Source: Opitutus sp. GAS368
Lineage (GTDB): Bacteria; Verrucomicrobiota; Verrucomicrobiia; Opitutales; Opitutaceae
Assembly: GCF_900104925.1 (NCBI RefSeq)
Contig: NZ_LT629735.1
Coordinates: 4,075,001-4,139,000, forward strand
Direction of reading: 5' to 3'
Length of the DNA: 64,000 nucleotides
The notes beneath the pieces were generated by a model that was given only the letters and a program-made list of their open reading frames with translations, searched no databases and had not been told where the DNA came from. Position numbers and translations under genes: made by a program. Positions 24,446-61,194 of this stretch are shown one piece after another. Positions within the stretch are counted from its first letter, which is position 1. Every line of letters begins with the position of its first letter.

Positions 24446-24483
24446 TCTGTATCGCGCTTTATGCGCGCCGTTTCGTGGGCGTC

Positions 24484-24507
24484 GGCGGTCACAGACCGCC
24501 GCTACAG
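24484..24507. repeat. Partial palindromic repeat, family R2
   Basis: GGCGGTC-ACA-GACCGCC followed by GCTACAG, the right end of the R2 element seen complete at 35480-35553. It lies 13 bases upstream of the enhancer-like dyad at 24520. Confidence 0.7.
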
Positions 24508-33511: not shown

Positions 33512-34708
33512 ATGCTCATGGCCGTGAGCAATCCGCCCCGTGAGGACTTCCTGATTCAGCTCGGCACCAGCGTGCGCGACGGCAGCTTCGTGAAGCTCAC
33601 GCTTGGCAAGCCGCGCGGCGGCGACGCCACCCTGCGCAACCTGCTGGTGCGGCCCGTGGTCCTGCGCGGCGCTCCGCACCTTTCCTTCGTCTGGCGGCAT
33701 GACCGGCAGGACATCACGAAGAACCACGCGCCGGAAGACGCCATCACGGCGCTGGCCGCGCTTGTCGGCGCCGACTTTCACAGCGCCCACCTCTTCACCA
33801 CGGCGCGGATGGCGCAGCTCGAGTTCAACAAGAAGGGCGAACCGCGCCTCACCTACGGTCCGGCCGCGGTGGAAAAGGCCGGGGGAGAGCACGACCGCAC
33901 CAAGCAGCGTCTGCTCCCGGAGCAGAGCCAGCCTTGGCTCGAAAAGCTGGGCGTCACGACCGCCACCGGCGCCGTCCGGGAGGGCCTGGCCGACAAGCAC
34001 CGGCAGATCCACAAGTTCACCGAAATCCTCAGCCACCTCGCCGCCGACGCGGCCTTGCCGACCCACCGGCCGCTCGAGATCGCCGACATGGGCTGCGGCA
34101 AGGGTTATCTGACGTTCGCCACGCACGATTACTTCAACCTGGTCGAGCAGCGCGCCGCGCACGTCCGCGGCATCGAGGCCCGCGAGGAACTCGTGACCCT
34201 GTGCAACCGGATCGCCCGCGAGACGGCGCGGGCGAACCTCAACTTTGTCCAAGGCACGATCGAGTCGGCCAGGCTCCCCGCGCTCGACGTGCTCATCGCC
34301 CTGCATGCCTGCGACACCGCCACGGACGACGCGCTCGCCAAGGGCGTGCAGGCCGGCGCCGCGCTGCTCGTGGTGGCCCCATGCTGCCAGAAGGAGTTGC
34401 GTCCCCAGCTGGTCGCCGCCCCGGTCCTGGCTCCCGCCTTGCGCCATGGGATTTTCCAGGAGCGCCACGCCGAATTTGCCACCGACGCCCTCCGCGCCCT
34501 GCTGCTCGAGTGGGCGGGCTACGACACGAAGGTGTTCGAGTTCATCTCGACTGAGCATACGGCGAAGAACCTCATGATCGCCGCCACCAAGCGAAACGGC
34601 CCGGCGCGCACCGAGTCCGCCGCCCTGAAGGTGCGCGAGCTGGCCACCTTCTACGGCATCAAGTCGCAGGCGCTCGCGCGGCAGTTCTATTTCGATCTCG
34701 GCACATGA
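33512..34708 (+). CDS. SAM-dependent methyltransferase (Methyltransf_32-like)
   Basis: 398 residues. An N-terminal ~150-residue domain (LGTSVRDGSFVKLTLGKPRG) is followed by a Rossmann methyltransferase domain with SAM motif IADMGCGKGYLTFA, the LHACDTATDDALAKG segment and the cysteine pair in VVAPCCQKEL, all typical of the Methyltransf_32 (METTL25/GSTCD-like) group. The target is probably RNA or a ribosome-associated molecule, by family only. The start could be the second Met (MAVSNPP). The stop overlaps the next methyltransferase start (ATGA), so the two are coupled. Confidence 0.82.
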   Translation: MLMAVSNPPREDFLIQLGTSVRDGSFVKLTLGKPRGGDATLRNLLVRPVVLRGAPHLSFVWRHDRQDITKNHAPEDAITALAALVGADFHSAHLFTTARMAQLEFNKKGEPRLTYGPAAVEKAGGEHDRTKQRLLPEQSQPWLEKLGVTTATGAVREGLADKHRQIHKFTEILSHLAADAALPTHRPLEIADMGCGKGYLTFATHDYFNLVEQRAAHVRGIEAREELVTLCNRIARETARANLNFVQGTIESARLPALDVLIALHACDTATDDALAKGVQAGAALLVVAPCCQKELRPQLVAAPVLAPALRHGIFQERHAEFATDALRALLLEWAGYDTKVFEFISTEHTAKNLMIAATKRNGPARTESAALKVRELATFYGIKSQALARQFYFDLGT

Positions 34709-35754
34709 ACTGGGAGACGCTCGACTGGGAAGTCCTCGACCGGCTGCGCGAAACGTTTCTGTCCGAGGCGAAGTCCGCCGGCCCCTACTGGCACACGATC
34801 ACCGACCTCGAAAGCTACGACCTCACCTACGGCGAGCGCATCGGTTGGAAGTGGGACGCGGTGCTGGCCGAATTGAAACGGCGCGGCTGGACCCCGCCCG
34901 CCAGCGCCACCGTGCTCGACTGGGGTTGCGGCAGCGGCGTCGCCGGCCGGCGCGTCGTGGACTTCTTCGGCGCGGCGAGCTTCACCCGGCTGCTGGTGCA
35001 CGACCACTCGGAGCTGGCGATGGACTTCGCCGAACACCGCGCGCGGAAACAATACCCGCAGCTCGAAGCCGGCCGCGCTGACGCCCGTTACCTCCGCTCG
35101 GATGAGCCGATCGGCGTGCTGGTCGCCAGCCATGTGCTCAACGAGCTCGCCGACGTGGCGCGAGCGGAGCTCGCCGACCTGTGCGCCCGCGCCCAGACCA
35201 TCCTCTGGGTCGAACCCGGCACGCACGAGGTCAGCCGCGCGCTCGGCGGCTGGCGCGAGAAACTGCGCGCCGCCGGCCTGAACCCCGTCGCTCCCTGTCC
35301 GCACCACGCCGCCTGCGGCGTGCTCGCGGCCGGCAACGAACGGCACTGGTGCCACTTCTTCGCGTCGCCGCCGGCCAACCTTTATGCCGACTCCGACTGG
35401 GTGAAGTTCGGCCAGCGCGCCGGCATCGACCTGCGCTCCCTGCCCTACTGCTTCCTCGCGCTCGACCGCCGGCCCACCTCTGTAGCGGCGGTCTATGACC
35501 GCCGGAACGATGATGAGGCCAACAACGACGACGGTCATAGACCGCCGCTACAGCTTTCCCGCATCCTCGGCGAACCGCGCCACTACAAGGGCTATGCCAA
35601 GATCTTCAGCTGCGACGCCAGCGGCGTGGCCGAACTGATGCTGCAGAAGCGCGACGCACCCGAATTATTCAAGGCCCTGAAGCAGGGCGCCGGCCCGGAG
35701 CTGCACCGCTGGGCGCACGCCCATGGCCGCATCATGCAAATCAAGCCGCTCTGA
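34705..35754 (+). CDS. Rsm22-like ribosomal methyltransferase with in-frame repeat insertion
   Basis: 349 residues. SAM motif VLDWGCGSGVAGRRV, the VASHVLNEL segment, and the Rsm22-family Cys/His cluster (APCPHHAACGVL ... HWCHFF), which in mitochondrial and bacterial relatives belongs to a small-subunit rRNA/ribosome-assembly methyltransferase. Residues about 259-283 are encoded by a 74-bp palindromic repeat (R2), giving a polar insert between CFLALDRRP and LSRILGEPRHYKGYAKIF. The insert falls after the Cys/His cluster, likely in a surface loop, and leaves the frame open. It forms a coupled pair with the upstream methyltransferase. Confidence 0.82.
   Translation: MNWETLDWEVLDRLRETFLSEAKSAGPYWHTITDLESYDLTYGERIGWKWDAVLAELKRRGWTPPASATVLDWGCGSGVAGRRVVDFFGAASFTRLLVHDHSELAMDFAEHRARKQYPQLEAGRADARYLRSDEPIGVLVASHVLNELADVARAELADLCARAQTILWVEPGTHEVSRALGGWREKLRAAGLNPVAPCPHHAACGVLAAGNERHWCHFFASPPANLYADSDWVKFGQRAGIDLRSLPYCFLALDRRPTSVAAVYDRRNDDEANNDDGHRPPLQLSRILGEPRHYKGYAKIFSCDASGVAELMLQKRDAPELFKALKQGAGPELHRWAHAHGRIMQIKPL
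35480..35553. repeat. Palindromic repeat R2 inside a coding gene
   Basis: Perfect 22-bp inverted arms (35480-35501 and 35532-35553; core GCGGCGGTCTATGACCG) around a 30-bp spacer. A degenerate copy is at 46254-46324 and a partial one at 24484-24507. This copy is translated as part of the Rsm22-like methyltransferase. Confidence 0.9.
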
Positions 35755-46253: not shown

Positions 46254-46324
46254 CTGTGGCGGCGGTCTGTGCCCGCCGGGAAGCGCGGCAGGGTCATCGT
46301 CGACGGTCATGGACCGCCGCTACC
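46254..46324. repeat. Degenerate palindromic repeat, family R2
   Basis: Starts CTGTGGCGGCGGTCTGTG and ends CGGTCATGGACCGCCGCTAC, matching both ends of the perfect copy at 35480-35553 with several mismatches and a different spacer. Confidence 0.75.
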
Positions 46325-57735: not shown

Positions 57736-60700
57736 TTGTCATCTGCCAATTCCGTTCCGCGCACCAAACTCACCGGCATTTGCCCGGCAGCGCAGACCCA
57801 TGCCCTCGCGGAACTGCTCCGGCAACATCCGGCGCCGGTCTGGCTGGTCATCCACGAGGAGGCGCAAAAAAACGACGCGCTGGCGGAAGACATCGCGCTT
57901 TTTCATGCGGCCAACGCCGGCAAGGTGCCGCTGGAGATCCTGTCCTTCCCCGAGGCGCAGACCGGCGAGATGCGCGAGGCCTTCAACGCCGCCAGTGACC
58001 GGCTCGCGGTGTTGAGCCGGTTGCGCGGGCTCAGGAACGCCTCGGCCAAGTCCGGCACGCTGCTCGTGCTTACGACACCGGCCGCCTTGCTCCAGCCCGT
58101 GCCTCCCCTGGCCGACTTCGCCACTCGCGAGGCGGAACTGGTGCGCGGCGAGCACCGCTCCTTTCAGGCCCTGCTCGACCTGATCAGCTCTTTTGACTAC
58201 GACAGCGAGGCGGTCTGCGAGGCCCCGGGTCAATACGCCGTGCGCGGCGGCATCGTCGACGTCTACCCCATCACCGCTCACCAACCCTACCGGCTGGATT
58301 TCTTCGGCGACACCCTCGAGGAGATCCGCACGCTCGACCCCGTCACCCAACGCTCGGGCGAATCGGTCGAGCGCGTCATTCTCACCGCGGCGCCGAAACT
58401 GCACACGTCGGGCCTGTCAGCCACCCTGTTGGATTACCTGAGCCCGGCCACCCACGCCGCGCTGCTCGAGCCCAAGGCACTGGAGGAGTTGTTCGATACG
58501 CTGGCACCGGATGCTGGTAGGGCGAATCCTCCGGATGAGCCGCGGGCTGACGGCTCGTCGGGACGACTCGCCCTACCCATCCTGGAAAAACTCCCACAGG
58601 CCGCCGCCCGCCTGTTCGGCATCAGCGACCTCGACCTGGCCAGCCGGTTGTTCGATGCGGCCGCACACGAGGAGACTTGGGACACGGAATCCCTCTCGCA
58701 CCACCGCGCTTATCCCGAGGAGCGCCTGCTCGCACACGAGCGGCTGGCCGCCGAGGAGGATGCGCGCCGGCAGTTTCTCGAGAAGGTCGCCGACTGGAAG
58801 CACGCGGGCTACGCCGTGGACTTTGTCGTCTCCAAGGAGGGCGAGGAACAGCGCATCCGCGAACTCCTCGCCGAACATGCCGCCCTGAAGAAGATCAAGC
58901 CACGCTTCCTGCGCGGTTCCCTGACCGAGGGATTCCGGCTGACGCTGCGTGAAGGTAGGGCGGGCACTCCGCTGCCCGCCGGGACCGCGGCGGCGCGGAG
59001 CGGAGTCCGCGCCCTACCCACCGGACTGGTCGTCGTCAGCGAGACCGAGATCTTCGGCCGCCAACGGGCGCGCCGCACCATCGCCAAACGCGCCATTGCC
59101 GCCACCTCGGCCGTGGACCAGTTGCTCGACTTCTCCGAGCTCGTTGAGGGCGACTTCGTGGTGCACTTGCAGCATGGCATCGCGCAATACCGCGGCCTGA
59201 CGAAACTCGAGACCGCCGACGGCATCCGCGAGGTCATCTCCCTGGAGTTCGATGACAAGGTCACGCTGCACGTGCCGCTGCAGGAATCGCACCTCATCAG
59301 CCGCTACGTCGGTCTGACCAAGACGAAGCCGCAGCTCGGGCGCGTCGGCTCGGGCCGCTGGGAAAAAGCCCGCCAGTCGGCCGAACGCTCGACGCTCGAT
59401 CTCGCCGCCGAGTTGCTGGCCATCCAGGCCCAGCGCGAGGCGCAGCCGGGTCACGCCTTCGCCGCGGACAACGTCTGGATGCGCGAATTCGAGGCGGCCT
59501 TCCCCTTTGCCGAGACCCGCGACCAGGCCAAGGCCATCACCGACCTCAAGGCGGACATGGAACGCACGCGGCCGATGGACCGGCTGCTTTGCGGCGACGT
59601 CGGCTTCGGCAAAACCGAGGTCGCCATCCGCGGCGCGTTCAAGGCCGTCATGGGCGGCAAGCAGGTCGCCGTGCTCGTGCCGACCACCGTGCTGGCGCAG
59701 CAGCACCTAAACACCTTCCGCGAGCGCATGGCCGGCTACCCGGTGGCGGTCGAGATGCTCAGCCGCTTCCGCACCCGCAAGGAGCAGGAAGGCATCCTCG
59801 CCGCGCTGGCCGAGGGCAAGATCGACATCCTCATCGGCACGCACCGACTGGTGCAGGACGACGTGAAGTTCAAGGACCTCGGCCTCGTCATCGTGGACGA
59901 GGAACAGCGCTTCGGCGTGAAACACAAGGAGGTCTTCAAGCGCTGGCGCGCCCACGTGGACATGCTCTCGATGAGCGCCACGCCGATCCCCCGCACTCTC
60001 TACCTCGCGCTCACCGGCGCGCGCGACCTCAGCACGATCGAGACGGCGCCGGCCAACCGGCTGCCGATCCAGACCATCGTCAAGAGCTATGACGAGAAGC
60101 TGGTCGTCGAGGCCATCCAGCACGAGCTCCGCCGCGGGGGACAGGTTTTCTATCTCCACAACCGCGTCATGAGCATCGACCTCGTGGCGGCGCGCCTGCG
60201 CGACCTGTTGCCCGGCGTCACGGTCGGCGTCGGCCACGGCAAGATGGGGGCCGACGGCCTCGAGCGGATGATGACCGACTTCGTCGCCGGCCAATACCAG
60301 GTGCTCGTCTGCACCACGATCATCGAGAGCGGTCTCGACATTCCGAACTGCAACACGCTCATCATCGAAGGCGCGGACCGCTTCGGCCTCTCGCAGCTTT
60401 ACCAGCTGCGCGGGCGCGTCGGCCGGTTCAAGCACCAGGCCTACGCCTACCTGCTGCTGCACCGGCACACGCGGCTGCTGGACGTCGCCCGGCAGCGGCT
60501 GAGCGCCATGCGCCAGCACAACCAGCTCGGCGCGGGGTTTCGCATCGCCATGCGCGACCTTGAGCTGCGCGGCGCCGGCAACCTGCTCGGGGCCGAACAG
60601 AGCGGCCACATCGTGGGCGTGGGCTTCGAGCTGTATTGCCAGCTGCTGCGCCAGAGCGTGGCCCGGTTGAAGGGTGAGAAGCACGCCGCGCTCGTCCGCG

Positions 60701-61194
60701 CCAATGTGAAACTCGACTTCGTCTTCGTCGGCGAGGGCGCCGAGTCGGAGCGCGCACGCGCCGGGGCCACCGACAGCTTCTCCGCGCTGAAGCAGACGGA
60801 ACGCATCGAGGGCGAGATCGACCGGATCCAGGCGCGCCTGCCGGCGGGCTATATCGGCGAGACGCGGCTGCGCATCGACTTTTACCGCCGGCTGGCCCTG
60901 GCCGAGAATCCCAAGCAGGTGAAGGAGCTCGAGGCCGAGTTGCGCGACCGGTTCGGCAAGTTCACCGAGCCCGTGAAGGCCCTGTTGCTGGTCACGGAAA
61001 TCCGGGTGCGGGCGGAACAAAAGGGCGTTTTGTCAGTCGAGACGCAAGGCAGCCGGCTGAAATGCCTCCGCAATTCGGGCCGGCGCGACGATTTCATCCA
61101 ATTGAGCAGCCGCTTTCCCCGCTTGACCGCACCCACCCCCCTTGCAAGGTTGAGGGAAATAATTATTTTCCTGCAGAATCTACCCACTCCATGA
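57736..61194 (+). CDS. mfd: Transcription-repair coupling factor Mfd
   Basis: 1152 residues from a TTG start. UvrB-homology region at the N-terminus (PGQYAVRGGIVDVYP), the RNA-polymerase-interaction domain (VEGDFVVHLQHGIAQYRGL), the RecG-like translocase with Walker A GDVGFGKTEVA, DEEQRFGVKHKE, SATPIPRTLYLA and the GRVGR motif, and a C-terminal domain. Mfd frees stalled RNA polymerase and recruits UvrA. Residues about 261-281 and 407-428 come from two palindromic repeats (58516-58577; 58954-59018) inserted in frame into the N-terminal half, away from the motor. The stop overlaps the SurA-like gene. Confidence 0.96.
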   Translation: MSSANSVPRTKLTGICPAAQTHALAELLRQHPAPVWLVIHEEAQKNDALAEDIALFHAANAGKVPLEILSFPEAQTGEMREAFNAASDRLAVLSRLRGLRNASAKSGTLLVLTTPAALLQPVPPLADFATREAELVRGEHRSFQALLDLISSFDYDSEAVCEAPGQYAVRGGIVDVYPITAHQPYRLDFFGDTLEEIRTLDPVTQRSGESVERVILTAAPKLHTSGLSATLLDYLSPATHAALLEPKALEELFDTLAPDAGRANPPDEPRADGSSGRLALPILEKLPQAAARLFGISDLDLASRLFDAAAHEETWDTESLSHHRAYPEERLLAHERLAAEEDARRQFLEKVADWKHAGYAVDFVVSKEGEEQRIRELLAEHAALKKIKPRFLRGSLTEGFRLTLREGRAGTPLPAGTAAARSGVRALPTGLVVVSETEIFGRQRARRTIAKRAIAATSAVDQLLDFSELVEGDFVVHLQHGIAQYRGLTKLETADGIREVISLEFDDKVTLHVPLQESHLISRYVGLTKTKPQLGRVGSGRWEKARQSAERSTLDLAAELLAIQAQREAQPGHAFAADNVWMREFEAAFPFAETRDQAKAITDLKADMERTRPMDRLLCGDVGFGKTEVAIRGAFKAVMGGKQVAVLVPTTVLAQQHLNTFRERMAGYPVAVEMLSRFRTRKEQEGILAALAEGKIDILIGTHRLVQDDVKFKDLGLVIVDEEQRFGVKHKEVFKRWRAHVDMLSMSATPIPRTLYLALTGARDLSTIETAPANRLPIQTIVKSYDEKLVVEAIQHELRRGGQVFYLHNRVMSIDLVAARLRDLLPGVTVGVGHGKMGADGLERMMTDFVAGQYQVLVCTTIIESGLDIPNCNTLIIEGADRFGLSQLYQLRGRVGRFKHQAYAYLLLHRHTRLLDVARQRLSAMRQHNQLGAGFRIAMRDLELRGAGNLLGAEQSGHIVGVGFELYCQLLRQSVARLKGEKHAALVRANVKLDFVFVGEGAESERARAGATDSFSALKQTERIEGEIDRIQARLPAGYIGETRLRIDFYRRLALAENPKQVKELEAELRDRFGKFTEPVKALLLVTEIRVRAEQKGVLSVETQGSRLKCLRNSGRRDDFIQLSSRFPRLTAPTPLARLREIIIFLQNLPTP
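58516..58577. repeat. Palindromic repeat R1 inside mfd
   Basis: 62-bp element, ends GGTAGGGCG and CGCCCTACC, nearly identical to the intergenic copies at 23556-23619 and 63258-63311. It is translated as a Pro/Arg/Ser/Gly-rich stretch between FDTLAPDA and ILEKLPQ. Confidence 0.92.
58954..59018. repeat. Second palindromic repeat inside mfd (R1 ends, different core)
   Basis: 65 bp with the same GGTAGGGCG/CGCCCTACC-type ends but a core containing GGGCACTCCGCTGCCC and GGAGCGGAGTCCGC. It is translated between LTLRE and TGLVVVSETEIFG. Confidence 0.85.

Follow-up and report, generated by a model that had tools for sequence, protein, structure and literature searches.

A 74-bp inverted repeat in the genome of Opitutus sp. 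GAS368 is a REPIN, a doublet of GTAG-tagged REPs with about 70 copies in that genome, and it is translated in frame within a gene for an Rsm22/METTL17-like methyltransferase. The loop that it occupies, together with loops of an hrpA-like gene and of mfd, is a recurrent landing site with turnover among related genomes. The simplest account, which we consider very probably correct, is that a REPIN mobilized by a RAYT landed in a tolerant protein loop whose contents are turning over; we infer the mobilization by the RAYT, the direction of change and the neutrality of the encoded peptide. The repeat family is called R2 here, and its features in the analyzed stretch of 64,000 nucleotides (the window) are collected in Table 1.

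Table 1. Repeat elements and host gene in the window
Feature	Position	Strand	Basis
Rsm22/METTL17-like methyltransferase gene hosting the REPIN	34705..35754	+	PF09243, structure match, dN/dS
R2 REPIN (REP doublet), in frame, codes for S259-Q283	35480..35553	+	hairpin, translation, family pattern
Left REP, GTAG tag and palindrome	35481..35504	+	exact match to family pattern
Right (inverted) REP	35529..35552	-	1 mismatch to family pattern
R2 REP with decayed partner	24483..24506	-	REP pattern; flank reading
Degenerate R2 REPIN, downstream of an outer-membrane efflux gene	46255..46324	.	REP pattern
R1 REPIN in frame in mfd (57736-61194)	58516..58577	+	R1 pattern, ortholog comparison

An in-frame REPIN and its family

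The element forms a hairpin of two 25-nt arms (35480-35504 and 35529-35553) that are 96% complementary, with perfect pairing at the outer 22 positions and a spacer of 24 nt. RNA folding of positions 35470-35563 gave -51.4 kcal/mol (z -8.85), which none of 200 shuffles equaled. The arms depart from the family pattern at one of 44 specified positions, and CT stands before the GTAG of this copy. The reading frame is open throughout the hairpin, which translates to SVAAVYDRRNDDEANNDDGHRPPLQ. The first-pass annotation had described a 74-bp element with perfect 22-bp arms inside an Rsm22-like gene, as the hairpin, the open frame and the PF09243 match now confirm; its roughly 25 polar residues are correct in number, but many, not all, of them are charged or polar. 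On direct reading, only one of the three frames of the left arm is open, so a gene would stay intact only with a copy of fitting length and phase.

Within the window the REP pattern occurs five times at up to three mismatches, the mean for 100 shuffles being 0.01. Two copies had been reported as degenerate and intergenic. The one downstream of the efflux gene is indeed a degenerate doublet, whereas the other consists of one good REP whose partner has decayed; its intergenic position is plausible, the long ORF spanning position 24483 having no Pfam match at an E-value of 0.01. A search of Rfam gave sub-threshold matches only, and the score of the hairpin against a microRNA family (28.5 against 150 bits) is a chance fit to a long hairpin.

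Across the 4.15-Mb genome the R2 arm, TGTAGCGGCGGTCTNNGACCGCCG, has 112 matches at up to two mismatches, and the reversed pattern has none at the same tolerance. The matches listed cluster into 70 sites. A census of doublets in 62 fetched stretches covered 69 sites, the window's own copy not among them, and found 53 convergent (+-) doublets, nine (+) and six (-) singles and one (++-) arrangement, with the (-+) orientation at none of the 69. A GTAG tetranucleotide beside a short palindrome makes R2 a GTAG-class REP, and many dispersed copies, mostly inverted and at preferred spacings, make the doublet a REPIN. Doublet lengths were 49-52 bp in 20 cases, 56-62 bp in 22, 69-72 bp in nine and 29 bp in two, and an arm variant (GCTC/GAGC) is also present in the genome. 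The lengths form three groups (near 50, 59 and 70 bp) with a step of about 10 bp, close to a helical turn, and all 17 copies of 50 bp have one GGTC arm and one GCTC arm. Reading the flanks of the 15 single REPs gave no clear support for these as sites of partner replacement; the partner was often decayed, and in some another repeat lay nearby.

R2 thus resembles the REPINs studied with their RAYTs by Bertels and Rainey 2011 (PMC3116915) in its inverted doublet unit, its preferred distances, a RAYT beside its own REPs and singles as remnants. The elements described there are extragenic, whereas some R2 copies are read as protein.

A candidate transposase flanked by R2

A RAYT-like transposase, for which the first pass proposed a search, exists in this genome and is flanked by R2. 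The intact 162-aa gene at G000:C1:672971-673456 (G-numbers denote genomes, G000 being that of the window) scores 96.7 bits against NF047646 REP_Tyr_transpos (cut-off 80) and is immediately flanked on both sides by R2 REPs, as a cognate RAYT would be. It is 76% identical to the query, the RAYT of the relative G003, and the RAYT of G011 is 78% identical; all three are R2-flanked and adjoin the same neighbor gene. None of the other loci scanned among the 78 of the transposase search (at up to three mismatches, places partly duplicated) bears R2. A PF01797 profile search of the genome returned nine genes, several of them flanked by other REP families and none by R2; the R2-flanked RAYT scores 20.4 bits against this profile, below the cut-off of 23, and was located by way of the G003 locus. 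For RAYTs that have been studied, the cleavage site near the REP is CT, and for one of them CA as well (PMC8266576). This RAYT is the likely mobilizer of R2, and the two inverted REPs would then move as a unit, most likely through single-strand cutting and strand transfer by that enzyme.

G009 (99% complete) and G017 (85% complete, 700 contigs) hold 165 and 54 R2 arms, respectively, and gave no match above 45% identity to the R2-flanked RAYT and no R2-flanked one among the loci read. Either R2 outlives its RAYT there or another enzyme moves it. In G009 the REPINs may have persisted beyond the loss of their transposase.

The host gene is conserved around the insert

The host protein (349 aa) belongs to the Rsm22 family by its match to PF09243 (65.1 bits, cut-off 23), and a Foldseek search with its model gave as best PDB matches chains of human and yeast mitochondrial small-subunit assemblies (METTL17 and RSM22). 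The AlphaFold2 model, built on a 45-row alignment, has a mean pLDDT of 89.3, with about 52 at residues 261-280, a low value to be expected in part, since the insert is missing from most rows of the alignment. The insert is modeled as a low-confidence loop between strands 247-254 and 283-294. An R2 copy would have come in at the loop that lies between these beta strands, and tolerance of the 25-residue peptide would have let the insert be kept.

A decaying gene would tolerate anything, and it would fit such a gene that no NCBIfam model matches at an E-value of 0.001. We consider decay highly improbable, however: the frame is intact, dN/dS against nine orthologs, calculated without the insert, is 0.12-0.26, the residues D72 and G74-G76 and several Cys/His positions are invariant across the 45 rows, and the gene is present in 20 of the 21 genus genomes, its own included. 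By these sequence measures the gene is under purifying selection and is not the silent pseudogene that had been considered at the first pass.

Turnover in the Rsm22 loop

We compared the loop among orthologs (WIN denotes the window's gene and L-numbers other loci). The ortholog set omits the fragment L075; the tree, of 47 rows with the loop removed, omits L033, whose contig ends at the loop, and L045, and includes L083 cut after the loop. The gene of G009 is split over two contigs at the loop, which places that loop outside the comparison. Identities of the upstream flank were out of register between rows and were left unused.

The two conserved motifs that bound the loop are 51 nt apart in seven of 20 rows and in L095, and 111 nt apart in the window. 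Strong inverted repeats in the gene proper were found in four of 62 coding sequences, every time in the loop (WIN, L020, L022 and L082), and in none of 620 codon-shuffled controls; a fifth match lies in the upstream extension of L082. Doublets whose arms differ, as in L019, L036 and the mfd loop of G000 and of G011, escape strict scans of this kind, and L019 and L036 do carry GTAG...CTAC palindromes at the loop. R2 itself is found in WIN, L019 and L022. In L020 the loop is occupied by the GTAGGTCGGGC family, which has 77 matches in that genome (G016). L082 has the GTAGGGTCGGCG family, with 32 matches in G001, and after it a decayed right arm of R2 (19 of 24 positions); L036 has another GTAG palindrome. 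Genome-wide counts of non-R2 palindromes cover those of L020 and L082.

The palindromes of all six carriers start within 9 nt of one point: counted from the start of the DLR codons, the first nucleotide of GTAG is nt 48 in L019, L020, L022 and L082, nt 45 in L036 and nt 54 in WIN. The remaining orthologs have no recognized palindrome in the loop, among them the long loops of L025, L027-L030 and L088. The first-pass annotation would have been contradicted by the insert in orthologs from genomes devoid of R2; eight of the 21 genomes have no R2 match, and none of their eight loops holds R2. R2 arms (at up to one mismatch) number 86, 99 and 54 in the genomes of WIN and of the two other carriers of R2 in this loop.

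Sister pairs in the tree bear on the insert boundaries, which the first pass had proposed to examine; none offers a clean empty site for the WIN copy, on which a target-site duplication of the MITE type would be judged. WIN pairs with L018 (98/82), L019 with L021 (100/95) and L022 with L082 (100/95). Neither L018 nor L021 has an R2 doublet in the loop, and in L082 the insert is partly overwritten: the foreign REPIN begins where the R2 left arm is missing, and the decayed right arm is still there. The WIN copy is young or refreshed, because its arms are near-canonical despite a WIN-L018 dS of 0.54. Since L018 has GTAGC at nt 60 from the DLR codons, 6 nt from that of WIN, loss in L018 is possible in place of gain in WIN. 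The proposal that such repeats are a source of new protein loops is not supported here: the loop pre-exists, its length differs among family members, a long insertion occupies the same place in yeast RSM22, and the R2 insert is lacking in two sister species and partly overwritten in the third.

One could instead suppose a single ancestral entry of R2, later lost or overwritten, with arms kept canonical by gene conversion. Such an old insertion would explain why the 3' junction (PPLQ-LS) is the same in WIN, L019 and L022 and their 5' points lie no more than 6 nt apart, why WIN and L022 both have the CGACGG variant in the right arm, with arms identical at 47 of 48 positions, and why traces remain in L082 and L018. 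Against it, the loops of L018, L021 and L083 are short and hold no recognizable R2 doublet, arm subtypes differ (GGTC/GGTC in WIN, GCTC/GGTC in L019) with unlike spacers, and the 3' flanks of L020 and L036 are different. We regard it as a possible reading, though not the probable one.

A RAYT-mobilized REPIN in a tolerant loop also accords better with these data than an insert kept for function, either as a useful peptide or as a hairpin in the mRNA that changes decay or slows translation. The hairpin is very stable, and in-gene R2 copies yield the same type of peptide (VAAVYDRR...GHRPPLQ); the left-arm part of that peptide, however, follows from its sole open frame, two sister species do without the insert, and other palindromes put unlike peptides into the same loop. 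A functional role seems very improbable to us.

Other loops filled by GTAG palindromes

Two further R2 copies lie in frame among the 69 sites, one in an hrpA-like gene with DUF3418 and helicase-associated domains and one in an ORF without a Pfam match over the cut-off; these calls are judgements from the ORFs, their GC by codon position and where the copies stand relative to likely starts. The three in-gene copies (51, 72 and 72 bp) have lengths divisible by three, as do seven of 52 other doublets (hypergeometric P 0.0046), a comparison we do not count as evidence, being post hoc and partly circular because in-gene copies were recognized by the open frame running through them.

In its first loop the hrpA-like gene holds R2 in three of 17 genomes (G000, G009 and G003), with another stretch inserted inside the R2 of G003; in G011 and G010 this loop is longer and of another kind, without a palindrome by strict scan. 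In its second loop, three different GTAG...CTAC palindromes are found in G000 (R1), G014 and G016, among 16 genomes displayed. R1, the family flanking the RAYT L016, also occupies the mfd loop of G000, G016 and G009. In G011 and G010 other GTAG palindromes start in mfd at the same nucleotide as R1 or 6 nt away, and the other 14 of the 19 rows have no GTAG at the loop, G014 looking like a remnant; the comparison covers 19 of the 21 genomes, G003 and G017 having no usable match. The mfd palindromes have the outer GGTAGGGCG in common and so may be related or changed in place. R2 and R1 both stand in frame in intact genes, which upholds the earlier claim that at least two families enter genes without breaking them.

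The recurrent occupation of the three genes by different palindromes is observed directly, and its cause could be tolerance, an old insertion with conversion or targeting by resident REPs. Other species have the same or other GTAG palindromes in these loops, so the loop content turns over. R2 loops are four to six codons shorter than a clean insertion into a 51-nt loop predicts, with a similar shortfall in the hrpA-like gene; these missing codons and the common 3' junction favor old insertion with conversion or resident-REP targeting over tolerance alone. More speculatively, a newly active REPIN family might preferentially enter a REPIN resident in a permissive loop, or exchange with it, at the GTAG end, making a few protein loops cassettes with content swapped from species to species. 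The exact or near-exact GTAG positions of different palindromes in the three genes, and the arrangement in L082, lead us to this tentative suggestion.

Relation to known elements

The class is not new: intragenic GTAG-REPs have been known in Opitutus terrae since 2013, and in-frame Rickettsia palindromes for longer. Di Nocera et al. 2013 (PMC3733652) report that intragenic GTAG-REPs peak in Opitutus terrae, an Opitutaceae member, so that R2 shares with them both superfamily and bacterial family. The inserts described there code for 20-30 residues in hosts that include RNA helicases and uvrA, the recB genes of two Xanthomonas species have different REPs at roughly the same site, and the authors suggest that loops or linkers tolerate intragenic REPs. 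The main text of that paper does not mention a methyltransferase as host; beyond what it describes, the present data add a comparison of orthologous loops over about 20 genomes, a cognate RAYT and an example of overwriting (L082). Among the matches listed from open-licence literature on Verrucomicrobia and Opitutaceae, judged by titles and abstracts, it alone bore on intragenic REPs. Rickettsia palindromic elements (RPE; PMC10969869, PMC3733652) are likewise in-frame palindromes within genes. As described there, RPE-4 and RPE-6 are of the CGTC class, unlike the GTAG-tagged R2, and seem to have no dedicated transposase; RPE-1, compared by description, is longer than R2.

We consider the precise re-occupation of the same loops by different repeats the interesting part. 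Near relatives with comparable filled and empty sites, a small RAYT that is intact and the REPINs belonging to it form a clean system for questions of REPIN site choice and of protein-loop tolerance. If different families truly return to the same nucleotides, the choice of target by resident REPs can be put to the test. A caution also follows: "insertions" in conserved Opitutaceae proteins may be recent mobile DNA and not function.

Compound inserts

The hrpA-like ORF of G000 (L244) contains at least four in-frame palindromes, namely R2, two R1 and a strong inverted repeat starting GAGGTGGAACCCGGC, with a hint of a further R1-like stretch upstream. In L249, L248 and L258, repeat-like stretches seem to lie within in-gene inserts, for example in the R2 right arm of the hrpA-like gene of G003.
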